Below are positions 4,165 to 22,540 of a DNA stretch of 39,344 bases, piece by piece. The DNA comes from a bacterium. Its GTDB lineage: Bacteria > Patescibacteriota > Saccharimonadia > Saccharimonadales > JAGQNK01. Every line of letters begins with the position of its first letter. Within the stretch, counting starts at the first letter, position 1. The notes beneath the pieces were generated by a model. The model was not told where the DNA came from and made no database searches. It was given only the letters and a program-made list of their open reading frames with translations. The translations under genes were made by a program, and so were the position numbers. The stretch lies in NCBI GenBank assembly GCA_029557815.1, contig JAKQHX010000028.1:1-39344 (forward strand). The letters are read 5' to 3'.

Positions 4165-4239
4165 GGCCTCATCGTCTAACGGTTAGGACACCAGGTTTTC
4201 ATCCTGGCAATCGGGGTTCGATTCCCCGTGAGGTCACCA
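4165..4239 (+). tRNA. tRNA-Glu (TTC), CCA encoded
   Basis: GGCCTCA/TGAGGTC acceptor, CCAGG-TTTTCAT-CCTGG anticodon arm, CGGGG-TTCGATT-CCCCG T-arm, encoded CCA. Confidence 0.97.
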
Positions 4240-4273
4240 AAACAAGAGCCCCTGAAAGTGGGGTTTTTGTTTT
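4239..4273 (+). terminator. Terminator hairpin immediately after tRNA-Glu
   Basis: AAAACAAgagCCCC tgaaagt GGGGtttTTGTTTT. Confidence 0.75.
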
Positions 4274-4481
4274 GGTGGTTTCTCTACGCGAGAAACGAAT
4301 CGAACACCGGTTCGAAGAACAAGGCAGCGCACAGGAGTTTACTCCGAGCACTGCTGCAGTTCGCAAGCCTTTAGGCTTATTCCCCGTGAGGTCGTGACCG
4401 CAGGAATCGAGCGCCGCTGGATTCGTCCTCGCGGGGGGTCTTTTTATTGATACAATAAATTATGAAGATATTTAATAACTA

Positions 4482-6547: not shown

Positions 6548-6596
6548 TACATTTCACGCGAGAGTATCCCTTATCAACAAGGAAGTTCTTTAAATG

Positions 6597-6630
6597 AAAA
6601 ATCCCTCCGTCTCGCATAAGACATTGGGAT
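6597..6630 (-). terminator. Terminator-like hairpin at 3' end of the candidate RNA
   Basis: Minus strand ATCCC-aat-GTCT-tatgcg-AGAC-gga-GGGAT then TTTT. Confidence 0.65.
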
Positions 6631-6885
6631 AATCCATCCACTATTCCGCTACCAGATGCTTCGGGCGCTTACTAGTTTAAGCTTCGCCCTAGGACAGGAA
6701 TGCCTTCCCGTTGTACCCCGGTAGATGATGCTTTACGTAGAATTGGTTCGCTCCGGCGTTTAAGCATCAATCAGATTGTTCTTAGTTTGCACCTAAGAAT
6801 TCTCTTTCGGAACTCTCGGAGACCGCAATAAGTTGGTCAAAATGACCCCCTTTCTTTTAGTCTTTGCGCACCAGTTTGGATTATA
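6597..6885 (-). ncRNA. Candidate structured RNA (~280 nt) carried by the IS element; family not recognised
   Basis: Minus-strand TATAAT (6885-6880), several nested complementary stems, and a 3' terminator-like hairpin + T5. Confidence 0.55.
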
Positions 6886-7045
6886 ACCCCATGAGGATTT
6901 AAAGAATATTGCTTACGCTAAGGCAAGATACTCCTTATCAATAAGGATGTTGTTACGAACATTGACTTATTATTGACATAAGCACACAGCTACGTAACAA
7001 TAATATTGAAACTATCAATAAGTTTATAGTGACAAGTTGGTAGTG

Positions 7046-7080
7046 AAAGAAAAACAGACCCCGCCTAGTAGAGTCTGTTT
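7046..7080 (-). terminator. Terminator downstream of the 26-aa ORF
   Basis: Minus strand AAACAGAC ... GTCTGTTTTTCTTTC. Confidence 0.7.
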
Positions 7081-7118: not shown

Positions 7119-7199
7119 TTACTGTATTACAGGGGGTGGCTCTTCGCATATTTCGCATTCTTCATCATCACAAAGGACAACGGTTGCTTCCACATGCAT
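7119..7199 (-). CDS. 26-aa ORF MHVEATVVLCDDEECEICEEPPPVIQ inside the IS element
   Basis: Strong SD agaaggaggt upstream of ATG; promoter and terminator flank it. Confidence 0.55.
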   Translation of the reverse strand: MHVEATVVLCDDEECEICEEPPPVIQ

Positions 7200-7400: not shown

Positions 7401-8228
7401 CTATCTTAAAACTCGTTTCGACGCCCGTTCCAAAAGAACAGGATAAGCAGCTACATCCCGATAAGAATAGCGAAAAACAAACTCGTCGAGGTAAGACTGT
7501 AAATATTTCCGTGAAACGTGGTGGTAAGTCCCGTCAATAGACCGTTTTAGTTGCCCCCAGAAGCCCTCTATGGTGTTCGTATGTACTCCGTCACGCACGT
7601 ATTCACCGATGCTATGGTGTACCGTCTTATGGTAGTAATCAGCCTTTGTCCAGTGGTAAATCGGGCTTTCGTCAGTATGTAATGTCGTGCCAATCTGCAC
7701 CGTGGACGGTATGAACGATTTAGTCCGTGCAGCAGAGGCGGTATCGGTGACCACAGCTCGAGCTCTTTTACTACTCAAAGCACCTAAAATAGGCGTTTTC
7801 TTGTTTCTTGCACCTAAGTAAGTTTCGTCAGCTTCAACTACACCCGAAAGCTTCATACCACCTTGTCTCATAGCAACTCGTATCTGCTTGCACATTCGCC
7901 ATGCGGTCTTATATGTGACTCCCAGATGACGTTGCACTTCTTTAGCCGACACACCATTCTTTGAGACGGAATAGAGATACATAACGTAGAACCAGCTGGT
8001 GAGTGGAATGTGGGACTTATGAAAAATTGTCTCAGCCAATGGATGTAGCTGGTAGCCACATTCACCACAGGCATAGCACTTGCGACCCTTTACTCGATAG
8101 AAAGTAACACCAATAACGCCACAGTGAGGACATGTATCTAAGTCACCATATCTAGACTGGAAAATACTATCTAAGCAAACATCGTCGTCAGGGTAATCTT
8201 TTCTAAACTGGGTAACTGAATAATTCAT
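7401..8228 (-). CDS. IS1595/ISXO2-like DDE transposase, apparently intact
   Basis: Zn-ribbon CPHCG...CYACGECGYQ, 'VVEADETYLGAR', 'LHTDESPIYHW', 'HTNTIEGFWGQLKRSI'. Confidence 0.93.
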   Translation of the reverse strand: MNYSVTQFRKDYPDDDVCLDSIFQSRYGDLDTCPHCGVIGVTFYRVKGRKCYACGECGYQLHPLAETIFHKSHIPLTSWFYVMYLYSVSKNGVSAKEVQRHLGVTYKTAWRMCKQIRVAMRQGGMKLSGVVEADETYLGARNKKTPILGALSSKRARAVVTDTASAARTKSFIPSTVQIGTTLHTDESPIYHWTKADYYHKTVHHSIGEYVRDGVHTNTIEGFWGQLKRSIDGTYHHVSRKYLQSYLDEFVFRYSYRDVAAYPVLLERASKRVLR

Positions 8229-8391
8229 ACCTAATTATAGCATTTAACAGGGGTAGTAGTCAATCTTTTTATGAATATTGCAACTAATAATTTACGAGGG
8301 CTTCCTTGTTAAAAAGGGACAGTCGCGATTTCACGGATGAATTATGCGTGACACTCACTGTCTTGAGAGCGAAATAATACTTCACACAGTA

Positions 8392-22141: not shown

Positions 22142-22535
22142 GGGGCTGAATTTTAAGCTCGACGTTGGAACTTTATCAATTAGCTCAGCAGGTCGCTTGT
22201 CAGCGTATAGACGAAACCAATAAATGCAAAAGCATTTGATCGCGTAGCTGCTATCAAGGACTTGGCTTCACGCCTTGCTCCTCAGCCGCTCGCAACAGCT
22301 GCCTAATTATTTGGACAGCCGCGTTATACGTGACGTCAGATAGCGTATCGACGCGCCATATTTTTCTGGCTGCGTTCGGCTACTGATCCTTGAGCTGAAT
22401 CAAGACTATAGGATCAACCCTTTTGTAGTTTTTGGTCATTTTCATCTACGAGAGGTACGCCAAATGACCTAAGCCTGTAGGATAGACTAATTAGATAAGC
22501 TAGCGGACCCGGAGGGCAGTTCTCCGGCAGCTCCA
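22142..22535 (+). ncRNA. ssrA: tmRNA (transfer-messenger RNA)
   Basis: 5' GGGGCTGAATTTTAAGCTCGACG resembles the tmRNA 5' domain; GGGGCTG/CAGCTCC acceptor; tag ORF AKAFDRVAAIKDLASRLAPQPLATAA*; terminator downstream; no CDS in region. Confidence 0.8.
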
Positions 22536-22540
22536 CAAAA

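Follow-up and report, generated by a model that had tools for sequence, protein, structure and literature searches.

The window analyzed here, a 39,344-nt contig from a member of the Saccharimonadales, contains a complete IS1595-family element of 1,769 bp, and the candidate RNA segment lies inside the ends of this element. Its sole long open reading frame (ORF) encodes the IS1595 transposase. The features of the element are as follows (strand in parentheses):

6551-6558 (no strand): left copy of the 8-bp target duplication ATTTCACG, read directly and identical to 8328-8335
6559-6585 (+): outer left terminal inverted repeat of 27 nt, with 81% complementarity to 8301-8327
6926-6954 (+): inner, degenerate left-end copy oriented like the outer one, 86% over 22 nt
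7052-7080 (-): terminator-like hairpin separating the candidate RNA from the transposase side, 11-bp stem and T-rich tail
7119-7199 (-): 26-codon ORF MHVEATVVLCDDEECEICEEPPPVIQ with a GGAGG ribosome-binding-like site, from the ORF list, no Pfam match
7401-8228 (-): IS1595-family transposase, 275 amino acids, Pfam DDE_Tnp_IS1595 and Zn_ribbon_IS1595
8301-8327 (-): right terminal inverted repeat, pairing with 6559-6585
8328-8335 (no strand): right copy of the target duplication ATTTCACG, matching the left copy

The transposase matches PF12762 (DDE_Tnp_IS1595; 4e-31) and PF12760 (Zn_ribbon_IS1595; 1e-10). The catalytic residues of the IS1595 family are D-D-N-K, and D134, D186, N218, and K228 are invariant across 11 of 11 aligned relatives. 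Given both ends, the 8-bp duplication, the IS1595 domains and the retention of these four residues, the element and its transposase look intact, and the matching target duplication shows that the outer ends now in place were mobilized as a unit. The alignment score of the inner left-end copy (6926-6954) was equalled by 1 of 500 shuffles; the alternative that it derives from the right end was rejected, a directly oriented left end being the better fit. The candidate RNA segment is situated between the outer left end and this degenerate inner copy, an arrangement suggesting that an RNA-like block was probably added outside an older left end of the element. The product of the 26-codon ORF MHVEATVVLCDDEECEICEEPPPVIQ is acidic and contains cysteine, and the ORF lies inside the transposon with a terminator-like hairpin downstream.

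The features of the candidate RNA itself, all on the minus strand, are listed here in the direction of the proposed transcript:

6880-6885 (-): TATAAT, candidate -10 box, from the sequence
6820-6863 (-): 5' hairpin domain of the predicted fold, weak alone (z about -1.5)
6643-6813 (-): core with a GUUCCG/CGGAAU closing stem and three branches (z = -3.4; base-pair probabilities)
6596-6635 (-): 3' hairpin followed by UUUUU, a probable intrinsic terminator (z = -4.7 for 6590-6642; pair probability near 1)

The predicted layout of minus-strand positions 6597-6875 thus comprises a 5' hairpin, a core whose three branches are predicted hairpins at 6773-6805, 6726-6769, and 6649-6724, and a 3' hairpin with a run of U, as the first-pass annotation had described for the end of the segment. 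Most of the helices named in that annotation reappear with high pair probability on the minus strand: GGUC/GACC (1.0), GAUGCUU/AAGCAUC (about 1.0), CUACC/GGUAG (about 0.95) and CUUAG-GUGCAAA-CUAAG (about 0.86), together with GGGC/GCCC (1.0) and GCUU/AAGC (about 0.6) inside CUACC/GGUAG. The proposed CGCAA/UUGCG pairing has to compete with a better AGACU/GGUCU stem. A CUCCG/CGGAG pseudoknot is possible, and the GGAG of this candidate also pairs locally with a probability of about 0.6.

Fold stability relative to shuffled sequence, expressed as z, was compared with that of the window's own tmRNA (22142-22538) as a yardstick, which scores -3.6 by the same method. For the whole segment, the minus strand gives z = -2.8 in one run and -2.6 in another, versus -1.7 for the plus strand; the corresponding values are -3.4 versus -1.9 for the core and -4.7 versus -2.7 for the 3' hairpin. 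The folds of the two strands are about 17 kcal/mol apart over 6590-6890, a gap larger than expected from a simple DNA palindrome. The fold signal is clear but not rare, since z falls below -2.8 in 2.7% of 560 overlapping 280-nt windows taken from both strands of this stretch. The tmRNA at 22142-22538 (+) is itself recognized by Rfam with 57.6 bits and is missed by ARAGORN.

The gene-like signals around the fold consist of the 3' hairpin with its U-run and a -10 box without a -35 box. The TATAAT reported earlier is indeed present at 6880-6885 on the minus strand, but it lacks a TG extension and is omitted by a promoter scan, having no usable -35 box. A strict terminator scan omits the 3' hairpin at 6596-6635 because of its internal loops. 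In line with the first-pass annotation, the segment contains no convincing coding sequence: the longest ORF spans at most 51 codons from stop to stop, and the ORFs that were searched have no Pfam match. Those searched lie at 6672-6770 and 6700-6831, and the 26-codon frame at 7119-7199 likewise has no match. The first of them had been described as a 31-amino-acid ORF; its extent is 6672-6770, with 32 codons starting from TTG.

Together, these features point tentatively to a non-coding, lineage-specific RNA passenger of the IS1595-family transposon, a reading to which we give somewhat less than even probability. On the minus strand, an RNA of about 265 nt would begin just 3' of the TATAAT (6880-6885) and end near 6597, and the transcript would fold into the 5' hairpin, the closed three-branched core and finally the terminator hairpin. 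The terminator-like hairpin at 7052-7080 would separate this RNA unit from the transposase unit, and, being located within the ends of the element, the passenger would move with it. The RNA passenger is favored by the completeness of the element, the strand-biased fold, the U-run, the lack of a convincing ORF and the separator at 7052-7080. It is weakened by the lone -10 box, by a whole-segment z that is met by about 3% of windows and by the failure of the searches described below to find a homologue.

About as likely, with the RNA passenger at most slightly ahead, is that the segment is filler that folds by chance, that is, captured or decayed DNA between the two left-end copies without an RNA function. 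The hairpins would then be leftover inverted repeats combined with the ordinary folding of a sequence of about 45% GC. The moderate z, met by about 3% of windows, and the -10 box standing without a -35 box fit this explanation, as do the single-copy status of the segment, the lack of a detected homologue and the fast turnover of passengers in related elements. Chance folding accounts less well for the bias toward one strand and the compact core with its three branches, or for a good 3' hairpin and U-run located exactly where the structured part ends.

No known RNA family was recognized in the segment, in agreement with the earlier annotation: an Rfam search at the gathering score gave no match to tmRNA, RNase P, SRP, 6S or group I/II introns, and at E <= 10 only two matches were obtained, SNORD30 and mir-302 (E = 6.6 and 9.5), both eukaryotic and rejected as chance. 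We hold it to be highly improbable that a chromosomal RNA such as RNase P, SRP, 6S or tmRNA gave rise to the segment by divergence or capture. Its size and multi-branched fold do resemble those of housekeeping RNAs; however, none of these families matches even at E <= 10, the tmRNA of the window sits elsewhere, and the genome holds no second copy of the segment.

Searches for relatives of the candidate RNA covered sets of genomes from the order, class and phylum that overlap one another, with stricter filters in the large searches. The segment is single-copy in its genome, and its DNA is absent from one other genome of its family. BLAST against 393 genomes of the order returned nothing except a 34-nt match in one genome, which falls in what reads as recX and was rejected as chance across 393 genomes (locus in G244). 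When the whole element was compared with 394 genomes of the class, the listed matches lay only on or beside the transposase gene. R1, a covariance model built from the 171-nt core (6643-6813), matched only itself among the 393 genomes of the order and among 384 genomes of the phylum. Homologues next to IS1595 transposases, which the first-pass annotation had proposed to collect, did not materialize, R1 again finding no sequence but its own in the roughly 40 loci that hold related transposases. BLAST of phages and plasmids with the segment and a search of viral contigs with four exact patterns gave no match, and a transposase scan of viral contigs led to one locus, in which R1 had no match. None of the sets searched yielded a homologue in which to look for covariation of the candidate RNA helices.

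What survives of the original proposal of a novel structured RNA in the transposon is a non-coding segment with a strand-biased fold, inside an IS1595 element and outside known families, whereas a link to transposition is not supported. The segment is absent from the related transposase loci searched, exists in one copy, and is accompanied by no TnpB/IscB-type gene or intron core. We accordingly regard a transposition-associated guide RNA or intron, of the omega-RNA or IStron kind, as very improbable. Location inside a mobile element is the only point in its favor; against it, the element lacks a TnpB/IscB-type gene, its transposase is of the IS1595-family DDE type, Rfam gives no intron or guide-RNA match, and related elements do not share the segment. 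IS200/IS605 and IscB elements with their omega-RNAs, and the IStrons, are alike in placing a structured RNA within a transposon, yet belong with a different class of transposase.

Related transposases were found in 81 of the 393 genomes of the order, and most elements with both ends placed have ends like AGGCGACTATCCC...GCAAGTA together with variable passengers. This comparison also bears on whether the segment could be a cis-acting part of the element, controlling transposase expression or end recognition as an untranslated structure or a feature of the left end. Such a role would suit its position on the transposase strand, flanked by two left-end copies, but a terminator-like hairpin intervenes before the transposase gene, and the segment is missing from all related elements, although a cis-function should be common to them. 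We consider this explanation unlikely.

In ten relatives (L004, L010, L019, L020, L021, L029, L039, L043, L045, and L046; paired locus labels, L019/L050, L020/L056, L021/L054, L029/L055, and L043/L059), a tRNA-like gene is located upstream of the transposase. Eight of the ten score 35 to 63 bits against the tRNA model, and those of L004 and L010 were recognized by eye only. In each of the ten, an exact second copy of 11 to 15 nt of the anticodon arm lies 83 to 117 nt downstream, and the resulting tRNA-like/antisense pairs lie about 115 to 280 nt upstream of the transposase start. Read on the opposite strand, this copy has a -10-like box before it and a terminator-like hairpin after it, which predicts a short antisense RNA directed at the tRNA-like arm. 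The matched segment is different in every element and always matches within one, and each antisense RNA pairs best with its own partner (mean, -24.7 kcal/mol, versus -11.0 kcal/mol for other pairings). Such a repeat occurs at this position in 9 of 35 loci, compared with 0 to 1 of 35 at six control positions. From sequence, the two genes look like a self-contained RNA pair, and we infer that they form an addiction or regulatory module.

Host tRNAs were considered and rejected as targets of the antisense RNAs of these relatives: in two genomes, exact 13-mers were found only in the element itself, and one site with a single mismatch is not in a tRNA. The candidate segment of the window was likewise rejected as a displaced tRNA-like/antisense module, having no tRNA match and no qualifying repeat. 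Direct repeats of at least 10 nt in the window's element comprise only one of 11 nt, which the transposase gene shares and of which about 0.4 are expected by estimate, and one of 10 nt that lies outside the segment. Two related loci without a tRNA-like gene, L007 and L041, show a strong hairpin RNA-like segment in the same place upstream of the transposase (GGCGGGTGAG...CTTATCCGCCTGGCCA and GACGGGTGAG...CTCATCCGTCTGGCCA).

The RNA-passenger reading gains from these relatives, which carry variable passengers and ten of which bear small structured RNA genes. By analogy with their RNA pairs, the most likely role, itself a guess, is that the RNA would serve the element by aiding its maintenance or regulation in the host, rather than acting in cutting or target choice. 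IS10 is an insertion sequence that encodes a small RNA, the antisense RNA-OUT, as the present element would; here, however, direct-repeat or antisense matches to the transposase message do not exceed chance. CreTA is an RNA-only toxin-antitoxin pair of two small RNAs, one of which acts on tRNA function (PMC8501985). The resemblance is by analogy only and concerns mainly the tRNA-like/antisense pairs of the related elements; unlike CreTA, no CRISPR repeats are involved, and the RNA of the window has no detectable partner.

Elsewhere in the window, a structured element at 4235-4450 (+) adjoins a tRNA-Glu gene (4165-4239), with z of -7.1 to -7.9 and no Rfam match. It is arranged in the order tRNA gene, hairpin, T-arm-antisense segment, motif GCGCACAGGAGTTTACTCCGAGCAC and 15-nt repeat of the tRNA 3' end. 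The motif recurs in eight other genomes, mostly beside a tRNA gene (Glu, Lys, Met, Leu, or Ile). Across the loci of this type (L078 to L086), its two helices show compensatory changes, with 93% of cells paired and both sides altered in 4 of 8 pairs, making 4235-4450 a conserved, covarying structured element. The evidence for this element and for the tRNA-like/antisense pairs is stronger than that for the candidate RNA.

The element described here resembles IS1595-family members with passenger genes in its transposase domains, terminal inverted repeats, 8-bp duplication and cargo between the transposase and one end, and differs in that this cargo is a non-coding RNA-like segment where theirs is a protein gene. 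Saccharimonadales-type IS1595 transposons might even carry interchangeable RNA-only maintenance modules, a tRNA-like/antisense pair in some and an unrelated three-branched RNA here, though we hold this wider proposal to be rather doubtful. An orphan fold alone settles nothing; its value lies in having pointed to related elements whose RNA pair can be tested. If transcribed, the segment would be a non-coding passenger in a transposon family known mainly for protein cargo, and in bacteria whose small RNAs appear to be little described in the literature searched.
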